Assembly (NCBI GenBank): GCA_017414435.1
Contig: JAFQMN010000009.1
Coordinates: forward strand, 62,001-126,000
DNA from: Oscillospiraceae bacterium
Lineage (GTDB): Bacteria; Bacillota; Clostridia; Oscillospirales; Ruminococcaceae
Length of the DNA: 64,000 nt
Direction: 5' to 3'
Part shown: in pieces, positions 57,835-62,447 of the stretch
Layout of the letters: every line of letters begins with the position of its first letter
Numbering within the stretch: the stretch's first letter is position 1
Made by a program: the position numbers and the translations under genes
The notes under the pieces: generated by a model
Database searches by the model: none
Told to the model about the DNA's origin: nothing
What the model saw: the letters and a program-made list of their open reading frames with translations, nothing else

Positions 57835-57889
57835 TTGAGGTGTGTTTAAAATAAAGTTATATAAAGTTGCATACAAATATACAACTTTA
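57835..57889 (+). promoter_or_regulatory. Promoter and operator-like palindrome of the capsid operon
   Basis: TTGAGG (57835-57840), 17-bp spacer, TATATA (57858-57863). Directly at the expected start point is the inverted repeat TAAAGTTG (57862-57869) / CAACTTTA (57882-57889), with further internal symmetry. The position suggests a repressor operator. The repressor is not identified; the palindromes near the XRE gene differ. Confidence 0.55.
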
Positions 57890-57952
57890 AGATTAATTTC
57901 AGATTGGAATTGAACATTGTTGTTCAAAAAAATTAAAAGGAGAGAGTTAAAT

Positions 57953-58300
57953 ATGAGAGTTTCTTTTACAGGAATTGGAGAAACAGTAGTAACATTTGAA
58001 TCCGATAAAAAACTTGAAGTAGGAACATTAGTTAATGTTGCTGAAAGTGGTAAAGTGGCCGCAGCTAAAGAGAATGAGAAGTTTGTTGGAATTGTTGTGA
58101 ACGCAACTGAACATGAGGCAAGTGTGCAGATTAAAGGTTATGTTAAAGTAAAATTCGAAGGGACGATTGAAGCAAATGCACTGGGCTGTTGTAATATGTG
58201 TTTAGGGAAGGAAGGAAAGTTAAAATTAAGTGACAAAGGAAGGGAAGTTCTATTGTTAGATGTTAATACTGAAAATAGTGAAATTGGGATTTTTATGTAG
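57953..58300 (+). CDS. Phage capsid decoration-like small protein
   Basis: About 115 aa, all-beta character with repeated Gly/Val turns (VGTLVNVAESGKVAAAKENEKFVGIVVNA), resembling small decoration/stabilisation proteins encoded beside phage capsid genes. Strong RBS AAAAGGAGAGAG before ATG 57953; the earlier in-frame TTG lacks one. The assignment depends on the two following genes. First gene of a three-gene operon. Confidence 0.6.
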   Translation: MRVSFTGIGETVVTFESDKKLEVGTLVNVAESGKVAAAKENEKFVGIVVNATEHEASVQIKGYVKVKFEGTIEANALGCCNMCLGKEGKLKLSDKGREVLLLDVNTENSEIGIFM

Positions 58301-58314
58301 AAGAGGATATGTTT

Positions 58315-59244
58315 ATGGAAAATAATATAATGATGCAAAATATTGATTCGGATTTAGAATTGATTAATAAACTTACTCGCAGACCGCTTAAAGCAGAAGA
58401 AGTATATACATTTAATGTGGTACTATGTGATAATGACCTCGATCGTGACTTTGAAGTGTTTGATTTAAAATGCTTATATGAATTAAAAGAACTGTTTTTA
58501 GGAAAAACAGGTATATTTGATCATGATCCAAAAGGAAGTAATCAAACATCTCGTATATATTTTACAGAAGTTGTGCGCGATCCAATAAAAAAAACAAAGC
58601 TAGGGCAGGATTATTATATGCTAAAAGCTAAGGCATATATGATTAGAAATGAAAAAAATAAGGACTTAATTGAAGAGATAGATGGTGGAATAAAAAAAGA
58701 AGTAAGTATTGGCTGTAGCGTTTCTTGTGTTAAATGTTCAATATGTGGATGCAACACAAAAAAAGAGAAGTGCGAACATGTTTTGGGGAATAGATATATT
58801 ATAAACGGAGAAGAACAATTATGCTATCATGTTTTAGAAAATGCCAGTGACGCTTATGAATGGTCTTTTGTAGCAGTGCCAGCTCAAAGGCAGGCAGGAG
58901 TAGTAAAAAGTATAAGAAAAAAGTTTACAGATTCGTACGAAACTAATAATTTTGGCAACGAAGACCAAACACAGTTAAATAAGTGCTTGGAATATATTTC
59001 GCAGCTAGAATCAATTGTAGGCGAGTTTGAAGAGGAATTAAGATCACAAGTAAAAAAATCATTTGCAGTTTTACAACCGGAGTTAAAACTTTCTACAATA
59101 AAAAGTATGGTAGAAAAATTAAATGTTGCAGAATTAAAAGAGATAAAAAAAGTACAAGATGAAAAGATGGGCAAGAATGTTATAATTCAAGCAGAAGGAG
59201 CAGAAACATCAAAAGATACAGACTTAACCAAATTTTCAATTTAA
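58315..59244 (+). CDS. Prohead (capsid maturation) protease
   Basis: About 309 aa. HK97/herpes-type assemblin-like protease: candidate catalytic His in IFDHDP (H70) and Ser in KKEVSIGCSV (S131), followed by a Cys-rich finger (C138, C141, C144, C146, C153, H155) and DAYEWSFVAVPAQ, a motif I associate with clostridial prophage proteases. The last ~100 residues are a charged coiled coil, like scaffold domains fused to proteases. ATG 58315 has AGAGG 8 nt upstream. Precedes the capsid gene by 16 bp. Confidence 0.82.
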   Translation: MENNIMMQNIDSDLELINKLTRRPLKAEEVYTFNVVLCDNDLDRDFEVFDLKCLYELKELFLGKTGIFDHDPKGSNQTSRIYFTEVVRDPIKKTKLGQDYYMLKAKAYMIRNEKNKDLIEEIDGGIKKEVSIGCSVSCVKCSICGCNTKKEKCEHVLGNRYIINGEEQLCYHVLENASDAYEWSFVAVPAQRQAGVVKSIRKKFTDSYETNNFGNEDQTQLNKCLEYISQLESIVGEFEEELRSQVKKSFAVLQPELKLSTIKSMVEKLNVAELKEIKKVQDEKMGKNVIIQAEGAETSKDTDLTKFSI

Positions 59245-59260
59245 AGGGAGGACATTTATT

Positions 59261-60259
59261 ATGGAATGTTATAAAAGTGTAAAGTTAGATAAAGACATGT
59301 ATAGAGTAGCGAATAAAAGTTTTTCAGAAGTTCTAGAAAGCTATGATAGTTCAAGTAACTATAGAGAAAGTTCACTTGCAAATATAGATGCATTTCAGCG
59401 TCAGTTAAAGCGGTTCGATATAAGAGTAGGACGGAACAATTCAGATGAGGTAGAGAAATTTTTCAGAAGTGCACAAACGGCCACATTATTTCCAGAATAT
59501 GTTTTGCGTGCAGTAAAATCTGGCACAGATGTAGTTAATACACTTAATGAAATAATTGCAGTTAAAACAAAAATAGACAGTATGGATTATCGTGCAATAT
59601 ATTTTGAACAAGATGATGAGCCTACGGTTATTGGGGAAGGAGCATCAATTCCTAGCGTTAATATAAAATTAAAAGAAAATTTAGTGACATTAAAAAAGAC
59701 AGGTCGGATGTTGGTAGTAGATTATGAAACTATTAAGAATAGAAAGATAGAAGTATTTACAATTGCATTAAAACAGATTGGTTATAAAATTGCGGAACAA
59801 CAACTAAAAAGTGCCATAGATATTTTAATAAATGGTGATGGCAACTTTAAACCAGATGTAAAAACAATAAGTGGTGGTTTAAAGTTTGAAGATCTAATAG
59901 ATTTATGGAACAGTTTTACTGAATATAAAATGAACACAGTGTTAATTTCTCCTAACATGGCCAAAAAGATGCTAGGCCTTAAAGAAATTTTTAATCCATA
60001 CAACGGTTTAAAATTTGAATTAACAGGCCAAGTAGATACTCTCATGGGAGCGAGATTATTAAAATCCAAATTTATACCAGATGATGTAATTATTGCTCTG
60101 GATAAAAATTTTGCTTTAGAGATGGTATGTTGTGGAGATATTCAAGTTGATTATGATAAATTAATCGATAGACAACTTAAACGTTCGACAATTACTTCAA
60201 CTTATGGTTTTACCAGAATTTGTGAAGATGCAGTTAAGATTTTAAAATTTTCCGAATAG
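59261..60259 (+). CDS. HK97-fold major capsid protein
   Basis: 332 aa. Region from about 68 on (SAQTATLFPEYVLRAV, then IYFEQDDEPTVIGEGASIP, LKKTGRMLVVDYE, LISPNMAKKML, TSTYGFTRICEDAVKIL) has the motif order of phage HK97-like capsid proteins. Residues 1-65 are polar and may be the delta domain removed by the protease. AAAGGGAGG RBS. A terminator follows 12 bp after the stop, and no portal, terminase, connector or tail genes are present. Encapsulin is less likely because of the dedicated protease. Confidence 0.85.
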   Translation: MECYKSVKLDKDMYRVANKSFSEVLESYDSSSNYRESSLANIDAFQRQLKRFDIRVGRNNSDEVEKFFRSAQTATLFPEYVLRAVKSGTDVVNTLNEIIAVKTKIDSMDYRAIYFEQDDEPTVIGEGASIPSVNIKLKENLVTLKKTGRMLVVDYETIKNRKIEVFTIALKQIGYKIAEQQLKSAIDILINGDGNFKPDVKTISGGLKFEDLIDLWNSFTEYKMNTVLISPNMAKKMLGLKEIFNPYNGLKFELTGQVDTLMGARLLKSKFIPDDVIIALDKNFALEMVCCGDIQVDYDKLIDRQLKRSTITSTYGFTRICEDAVKILKFSE

Positions 60260-60271
60260 TAAAGTAAACAC

Positions 60272-60300
60272 AAAAAATCCCCTTGAATAGGGGATTTTTT
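60272..60300 (+). terminator. Terminator of the capsid operon
   Basis: Perfect 11-bp stem AAAAAATCCCC / GGGGATTTTTT with 7-nt loop. It shows that the capsid operon ends here. Confidence 0.93.
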
Positions 60301-60539: not shown

Positions 60540-60935
60540 ATGACAGCAGGAGAACTGGCGGTTATAACTAAAGCGAAGGATGTTTGCAATTATATTATAA
60601 CAGTTACAGATAAATCCCCTAAAAAATTTCGTTTTACCTTAATTGGGCGTATGCAAAATTATGCTCTAGATATTATAGAAGGAATGATTATGGCAAATGA
60701 AGTTTACGTTACAGAAAAAGGACGAAGTATTAATGTAGAAGCATTAAAAGAGAGGCAAAAATTGCAAAGGAATGTGCTTACAAACATAAAACTATTGGCA
60801 TATGTATCGCAACTTTCTATGGAGCAAAAATGCATATTACCAAAACAATATGAGCAGATTACAGAAAAGCTCTATACATGCCAAAACCTCTTGGGCGCCT
60901 GGATTAAAAGCGATTTGAAAAGGTTTGGCAAATAA
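60540..60935 (+). CDS. avd: DGR accessory variability determinant (Avd), four-helix bundle
   Basis: 131 aa, basic, predicted four helices. Features of Avd-like four-helix proteins: KFRFTLIGRMQNYALDIIEGMIMANEV near the N-terminus and a basic C-terminus (LGAWIKSDLKRFGK). Avd forms a pentameric barrel that binds the DGR RNA and reverse transcriptase (family knowledge). It sits directly before the template repeat, as in canonical avd-TR-RT cassettes. ATG start with AAAGGGAG RBS. Confidence 0.9.
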   Translation: MTAGELAVITKAKDVCNYIITVTDKSPKKFRFTLIGRMQNYALDIIEGMIMANEVYVTEKGRSINVEALKERQKLQRNVLTNIKLLAYVSQLSMEQKCILPKQYEQITEKLYTCQNLLGAWIKSDLKRFGK

Positions 60936-60985: not shown

Positions 60986-61108
60986 TGGTTCTGGTTGCGT
61001 TCTCCGAACGCGAGCAATAGCAACAATGCGCTGAATGCTAATACTGGCAACTATGTGAATAACAACAATGTCAACAATAGCAATAGGTGCGTCCCCGCAT
61101 GGCCTTAA
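60986..61108 (+). repeat. DGR template repeat (TR)
   Basis: Read in frame from 60986 it gives WFWLRSPNASNSNNALNANT, then GNYVNNNNVNNSNRCVPAWP and a stop (TAA 61106-61108). About 15 of 40 codons are AAC/AAT, whose adenines are the mutable positions of DGRs. This matches variable-region ends of C-type-lectin/FGE-fold DGR targets (xLRSP...NNNNVNNSN...VxPA). There is no start codon or RBS, so it is a template, not a gene. Exact edges are inferred; no VR copy is found in the window. Confidence 0.9.
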
Positions 61109-61394: not shown

Positions 61395-62447
61395 TTGTAT
61401 GAAAAATTAACAGATTTTGCGAGTATTTATCAGGCATATAGAAAAACAGCAAAAGGGAAACATAATGAAAACGAGGTAGTACGTTACGAAACGAATTTGC
61501 ATATGCAATTATGGCGCTTAAAAGAAAGAATAGAAAATAAGACGATAAAAATTGGTGGTTACCATAAATTTATGGTGTTCGATCCTAAAAAACGAGAGAT
61601 CCAAGCACTAAGCTTTTCAGATAGAGTATTTCAACATTTACTATGTGATAAAGTGTTAATGCCATATTTTGAACCTAAACTAATTTATGATAATGCTGCA
61701 TGCAGAAAAAATAAGGGCACACATTTTGCTCAAAACCGCTTTTCTAGCTTTTTAAGAGATCACTATAAAAAATATGGTAGTAAAGGCTATATTCTAAAAT
61801 TCGACATCAAAGGCTATTTTAACTCTATACACCATAAAGTGCTGAAAGAAAAACTTAAAAATTTTCCAGATAAAGACGTTAAAAAACTTCTCTATTATAT
61901 TATAGATAGCTACGAAAATGAACCAGAACGCGGTATACCCATGGGAAATCAATCTAGTCAATGGTTTGCACTTTATTATCTAGACTGTCTGGATAGAACT
62001 ATAAAAGAAAAATTGCATATCAAATATTATATCAGGTATATGGATGATGGAGTGCTATTACACCAAGATAAAGAGTATTTGAAAAAATGCCTAGCAATTA
62101 TAAAAGAGCAAGCAGCTAAAGATAAACTTGAATTTAATAAAAAAACACAAATTTTCCCATTATGCCAAGGGGTAGATTTTTTGGGGTTTCACTTTTATCT
62201 TACAGATACCGGCAAAGTTATAAAAAAACTTAGAACATCTAATAAAAAACGATTCAAAAGACGCCTTAAACGGTTTGAAAGGCAATATGCAAAAGGTCAA
62301 ATCTCTTATGAAGAAATAAAAAGAAGTCTTGCTAGCTACCAAGGTCATCTAAAGCACGGTCATACATATAAACTTAGGAAACATGTAATCTCTAATATAA
62401 AATTTACACAAAAATCAAACAAAAACGAAACAGAAAATAGCTTTTAG
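61395..62447 (+). CDS. Diversity-generating retroelement reverse transcriptase
   Basis: 350 aa, compact DGR-size RT that copies the TR with adenine mutagenesis. Motif A FDIKGYFNSI (D137), motif B/4 GIPMGNQSSQW (181-190) with the DGR-style GNxxSQ in place of the group II QGxxxSP, catalytic YMDD (215-218), and GVDFLGF after it. Basic C-terminal thumb. No maturase or endonuclease domain. TTG start at 61395 after AAAGGGGAG. The gene ends inside a terminator. Confidence 0.93.
   Translation: MYEKLTDFASIYQAYRKTAKGKHNENEVVRYETNLHMQLWRLKERIENKTIKIGGYHKFMVFDPKKREIQALSFSDRVFQHLLCDKVLMPYFEPKLIYDNAACRKNKGTHFAQNRFSSFLRDHYKKYGSKGYILKFDIKGYFNSIHHKVLKEKLKNFPDKDVKKLLYYIIDSYENEPERGIPMGNQSSQWFALYYLDCLDRTIKEKLHIKYYIRYMDDGVLLHQDKEYLKKCLAIIKEQAAKDKLEFNKKTQIFPLCQGVDFLGFHFYLTDTGKVIKKLRTSNKKRFKRRLKRFERQYAKGQISYEEIKRSLASYQGHLKHGHTYKLRKHVISNIKFTQKSNKNETENSF

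Follow-up and report, generated by a model that had tools for sequence, protein, structure and literature searches.

We analysed a 64,000-nucleotide window from the chromosome of an Oscillospiraceae bacterium (genome G000; 0.94 Mb, 98% completeness), in which three capsid genes lie on the forward strand between PBP1A and uvrA. The first (57953–58300) starts with ATG and encodes a decoration/cement-like capsid protein of 115 aa (phrog_4588, 2.6e-18). It is followed by a prohead protease of 309 aa (58315–59244; 311 aa with the upstream ATG at 58309), which matches phrog_16951 at 1.9e-92 and the head maturation protease family phrog_18299 at 5.7e-5, and by an HK97-fold major capsid protein (MCP) of 332 aa (59261–60259; phrog_3922, 1.4e-81; PF25209, 45.7 bits, cut-off 27). 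The PHROG and Pfam profiles confirm the trio with intact frames proposed by an earlier sequence-only reading of this DNA. The AlphaFold model of the MCP (pLDDT 78) has the HK97 fold and matches the HK97 head (2fs3, 1.8e-10), the capsid of the Rhodobacter capsulatus gene-transfer agent RcGTA (6tsu, 4.2e-10; 6tb9 matched too) and encapsulins (around 1e-9), with the capsid of the capsid-forming PICI EcCI2 also among the good structural matches.

The signals around the unit were compared with the sister genome G001 (rumen MAG RGIG1454, Oscillospiraceae, a metagenome assembly), the one further genome found for the genus. A palindrome of the form GTTGC-N10-GCAAC with one mismatch (GTTGCATACAAATATACAAC, 57866–57885) lies 67 nt before the start of the decoration gene and recurs before other units described below, and an intrinsic terminator with a 12-pair stem and a T-run (60272–60300, forward strand) closes the unit; both features, already read from the sequence, are real and conserved in the sister. 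A short inverted repeat, TTGAACA-N4-TGTTCAA (57911–57928), sits just 5' of the RBS, and in the sister its arms are kept and its loop is altered. The unit had also been credited with a promoter of its own, but a sigma-70 promoter was not demonstrated, promoter-like matches in the capsid region being no commoner than in shuffled sequence. An Rfam search of the same region gave no match above threshold.

The sister carries the same block, PBP1A-trio-Avd-RT-uvrA, with all three capsid frames free of stops and no full prophage at the site, so that neither outcome named beforehand as refuting the proposal was seen. The trio is thus conserved between PBP1A and uvrA in a related genome, as had been suggested for checking, though a separate element on which that reading was silent, a diversity-generating retroelement (DGR), intervenes before uvrA. 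It comprises the accessory protein Avd (60540–60935, forward strand; phrog_3206, 8.7e-21; PF22296, 38.8 bits, just below the cut-off of 40), a template repeat (around 60986–61101, forward strand) and a DGR-type reverse transcriptase (RT; 61395–62447, forward strand; PF00078, 1.6e-19; phrog_1423, 5.5e-113), the sole PF00078 match in G000. Its two variable repeats are far off. One (C8:114901) lies in a 901-aa secreted surface protein (Big/DUF6273) next to dnaJ/dnaK, the other (C8:224268) in a frameshifted copy adjoining the portal gene (C6 and C8 being contigs of G000). Template and first variable repeat differ at 17 positions, 16 of them at a template A. Particle genes as the DGR target were considered and ruled out, and we claim no link between the DGR and the particle because the variable repeats lie outside the particle genes. 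The RT of the sister (L017 10140–11200) has +2 and +1 indels, and the template and one variable repeat persist there.

Particle genes at other chromosomal loci

Searching G000 with the genes of relatives' contiguous clusters recovered further particle units; together with the capsid unit and a boxed lysis gene they make six transcription units in four chromosomal neighbourhoods. The terminase genes terS-terL (C8:66.2–67.8k) lie between holA and hisS, the portal unit (C8:225.4–226.5k) between an nth-like gene and tsaE, and both a unit running from the connector through a LysM protein to the hub (C6:61.9–65.2k) and a baseplate J unit (C6:66.0–66.9k) near ftsEX; these flanking-gene names are assignments read from sequence. 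A holin-amidase gene of 294 aa (C6:51.35–52.23k) has the palindrome upstream and keeps its position in the sister. The absence of terminase, portal, connector and tail genes is accordingly true of the locus and false of the genome, and the description of the trio as an orphan fails at that level. The frames of the particle units are intact in G000, the units are resident in the chromosome between housekeeping genes with no replication or integration genes beside them, and neither an integrase nor satellite regulators adjoin them. The traced units sit at corresponding places in the sister, where indels of 1–2 bases affect the portal, baseplate J, holin-amidase and the neighbouring RT. Their cause could be variation between strains, a fault of the assembly or incipient gene loss in that genome; the low dN/dS of the flanking sequence argues that they are recent or assembly errors.

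Several other genes lie close to these units. Divergent from the baseplate J unit, and sharing the palindrome region with it, is a 792-aa winged-helix and AAA ATPase (L069 12968–15346), followed by a short lysine/glycine-rich protein (L069 15660–15941); this arrangement is conserved in the sister and may represent a regulator or accessory of the particle. Directly 5' of the portal unit in both species is a small protein whose leader is of the double-glycine type (LSLEELFSINGG; L053 10788–11024 and L073 10070–10309), which is possibly bacteriocin-like. A recombinase-like 571-aa ORF and a primase-like 770-aa ORF (L070 916–6486; C8:58.9–64.5k) lie on the far side of holA, the recombinase-like ORF being 1.7 kb from terS and occurring in G000 only; both are missing from the corresponding sister stretch L072, and these mobile-element-like genes are apparently an unrelated insertion.

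In relatives at 45–53% capsid identity, the same genes form a single contiguous cluster, terS-terL-portal-protease-(decoration)-MCP-connector-...-hub, to which some genomes add sheath, tube and baseplate genes, and the examined clusters are flanked by housekeeping genes. A glgP flank is common to four genera, and the Anaerotruncus and Marasmitruncus loci have common DegV/pgk/tpi/gpmI flanks. Two genomes of genus g83 (G083 and G156; 0.7 and 0.8 Mb) hold the same units in scattered form, as four operons (terS-terL; portal; protease-MCP; connector-to-baseplate), although the terminase and connector units remain neighbours in G083, and the unit breakpoints are common to G000 and this genus. No sheath or tube homologue turned up in the retrieved units of the short and dispersed forms (G000, G083 and G156), so the particle is probably very short-tailed; a receptor-binding protein was likewise not found in the retrieved units. 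Two faecal entries filed as 'Bacteriophage sp.' (MT835508 and MT835952; L202 and L203) look like bacterial chromosome with a particle cluster in the middle, surrounded by ribosomal proteins and an Rnf-like operon, and are either misfiled or packaged host DNA.

A palindrome common to the particle units

Every particle unit of G000 has GTTGC-N10-GCAAC, with at most one mismatch, just upstream, and the sister retains the arms of this box, with differences in some spacers. Four exact copies occur in the whole genome, before the connector, terS and portal genes and inside cdsA. With up to one mismatch allowed there are 43 sites, and 29 of the 36 inspected fall within coding frames, including the exact cdsA box and a near-match in fliH, both of which were discarded as candidates. 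The remaining seven are intergenic: five precede particle units, one precedes the holin-amidase gene and one lies within the broken copy of the DGR target. From 43 sites in 935 kb, we estimate that about 0.04 boxes would be expected in the ~900 bp upstream of the six units.

The same association is found in genus g83, where each of the four operons in both genomes has an exact box at or just 5' of its first gene. Indeed, the 0.7-Mb genome G083 contains exactly four exact boxes genome-wide, all at the four particle operons, and G156 contains seven, four at particle units and one before a holin and an amidase, which both match the G000 holin-amidase in sequence. In several genomes with contiguous clusters, this box or a palindrome related to it also lies 5' of terS; no recognisable box was found at the Anaerotruncus-group loci. 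G105 and G024 each have a second exact box ahead of a lone lysin gene, Glucosaminidase in G105 and Peptidase_M23 in G024, so that the boxed lysins span three unrelated families (Amidase_2, Glucosaminidase and Peptidase_M23) and the box therefore seems to recruit non-homologous lysins. The spacers are non-pairing in G000, which speaks for a DNA operator rather than an RNA hairpin or leader. The distribution of the box suggests that particle, packaging and lysis functions may be under common control.

Additional exact boxes in G118, G206, G063 and G014 were followed up and have no clear particle link. In G118 (L173–L175), GTTGCATAGTTTGATGCAAC or its reverse complement is found three times, in each case ahead of paralogues of one protein (MAEKRNEHKSFVMYNDWGNSLQEF...). 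In G066 (L112) two copies of the box GTTGCACGTTTGCGTGCAAC stand 5' of the cluster, apparently within repeated sequence, with a near-identical copy downstream near a 540-aa HTH protein. G156 also carries, at C1:254–269k (L177), a second, unrelated phage-tail-like cluster (spike, gp25-like and large baseplate proteins), possibly a contractile injection system, that contains one box-like site.

Selection, inheritance and the nature of the particle

We calculated dN/dS between G000 and G001, for which dS is about 0.3–0.6 for most genes. In the capsid unit the ratio is 0.044 for the MCP, 0.059 for the protease and 0.12 for the decoration protein, values like those of housekeeping genes that indicate purifying selection on the trio and agree with the earlier argument that its intact frames speak against random decay. 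Packaging genes are similarly constrained (terS 0.071, terL 0.063, and portal 0.044 for its in-frame part only), as are the connector (0.042), LysM protein (0.05) and hub (0.15). The highest ratio for a particle gene is 0.23, for one gene of the tail operon, and the in-frame part of the holin-amidase gives 0.22; control genes range from 0 to 0.17 (PBP1A 0.059, holA 0.12, hisS 0.13, ftsW 0.046, tsaB 0.17).

The MCP is present in 145 of 297 genomes of the family, representing 53 of 95 genera, almost always as one unbroken copy. Distances among the particle proteins correlate with UvrA distances, at a Mantel rho of 0.69 for TerL, 0.60 for the portal and 0.44 for the MCP, values reached by none of 2000 permutations, and the TerL, portal and MCP trees share clades with UvrA, including ((G000,G001),(G083,G156)). 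Judged from these sequence comparisons, inheritance across the family appears broadly vertical, and the lack of the MCP in half of the family genomes implies repeated loss or some horizontal spread.

These data bear on what the trio is. A prophage remnant in decay, split up by rearrangements, would fit the phage origin of the genes, which is certain, and the frameshifts of the sister assembly in three units, but we consider it very improbable: the capsid-unit dN/dS of 0.04–0.12, measured at a dS of about 0.4–0.6, is at the housekeeping level, the traced units occupy identical sites in both species, the same palindrome stands before every unit with breakpoints common to genus g83, and nearly all carriers have a single unbroken copy. 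Neither relaxed selection nor stops were found throughout the genes, which show dN/dS of 0.04–0.23 and intact frames in G000 itself. The sequence-only reading had proposed a domesticated particle, in the form of a nanocompartment, a satellite capsid or a gene-transfer component. We give almost no credence to a stand-alone encapsulin-like nanocompartment of three genes, for although the MCP has the HK97 fold and encapsulins are among its structural matches, the protease and decoration protein share a regulon here, and one cluster in relatives, with the terminase, portal and connector. A phage satellite capsid of the cf-PICI type, for which the EcCI2 capsid is a good structural match, is just as implausible, as no integrase or satellite regulators lie beside the units and the loci are dispersed, inherited congruently with the host and not mobile. 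Against both stand the intact terminase, portal, connector and lysis gene of the one regulon and the absence of mobility genes from every unit.

Purifying selection, conserved sites, vertical inheritance and the shared operator strongly support the domesticated-particle and gene-transfer part of that proposal. The trio is very probably the capsid unit of a dispersed, domesticated, host-regulated particle of the gene-transfer-agent (GTA) type. An unlikely alternative is a domesticated particle for killing competitors (PBSX- or bacteriocin-like), which packages some host DNA without heritable delivery; it would need the same kinds of genes, and such a use is left open for Faecalibacterium by the authors of the FpGTA study (PMC12946183). 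Against it, the terminase, portal and capsid are under strong constraint, and a contractile killing tail is unlikely because the short and dispersed forms are without sheath and tube.

In plan, the nearest published system is FpGTA of Faecalibacterium prausnitzii (Borodovich et al. 2026, PMC12946183). It consists of a 10.5-kb operon and a further locus that encodes baseplate and lysis functions, lacks replication genes, occurs in 12/12 Faecalibacterium genomes examined and forms particles of ~40 nm that hold ~9 kb of DNA and in which no tail is visible; the same study describes GTA-like packaging in Ruminococcaceae and Oscillospiraceae (PMC12946183). The likeness is one of gene plan and lies in the order TerS-TerL-portal-one gene-MCP in related gut Clostridia (portal RCH50851, MCP RCH50849), the single gene between portal and MCP being deduced from these accession numbers and matching the arrangement here. 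FpGTA has two operons, and no shared palindrome is mentioned in PMC12946183, whereas here at least six box-controlled units occupy four neighbourhoods, with the portal split from both terminase and capsid. Flavonifractor phage Cormatin (ON453905) has the order terS-terL-portal-protease-MCP-adaptor and a protease 37% identical, but its genome is that of a complete phage, replication and tape-measure genes included.

RcGTA is likewise domesticated, with dispersed loci, host control, an HK97 capsid and a terminase that packages host DNA. Its head-tail genes stay in one large cluster. Here even the head genes are split, and sequence similarity is low, the structural matches being at 14–17% identity. 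PBSX of Bacillus subtilis, too, is a defective-phage particle encoded in the chromosome of a Gram-positive, and it packages host DNA. It is one contiguous contractile-tailed prophage. PBSX is a killer, whereas the genes here are scattered, neither sheath nor tube turned up at the units, and no contiguous contractile-tail cluster is present in the retrieved units of G000, G083 and G156. Our literature searches found no GTA for Anaerotruncus or for reduced genomes.

A GTA-type particle of this kind could work as follows. A dedicated regulator would read the palindrome and turn on all units jointly in some cells, the protease would mature the capsid, and the terminase would pack short stretches of host chromosome into it via the portal. 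The connector and the hub/baseplate would seal a particle with a very short tail, and the holin-amidase would lyse the producer, so that freed particles could bring DNA to kin. With its genes at separate loci, the particle cannot spread them as one block, and its persistence must therefore come from host selection. On balance, we favour the reading that a GTA has been fully taken apart as a genetic unit and reassembled as a regulon of the bacterium, in which terminase, portal and capsid lie at separate loci, each with a copy of one dedicated operator, in which that operator also recruits unrelated lysins, and whose layout has outlasted genome reduction to 0.7–0.9 Mb in two genera. On the same reading, retention in reduced genomes would suggest that particle-mediated exchange is worth keeping when most genes are lost.

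Few lineages are known to have GTAs, and what is understood of GTA control comes mainly from Alphaproteobacteria. The novel features here are the full scattering across six units or more, an operator common to them, the recruitment of lysins and the retention in reduced genomes. The analysis also carries a warning, since such loci get filed as phages or pass for orphan capsid genes. For this common gut and rumen family, it points to a GTA-type system whose parts may be listed from one DNA word, with an apparently broadly vertical history kept through extreme genome reduction, and with the operator as a starting point one can search directly for the regulator, the inducing conditions and the missing components.
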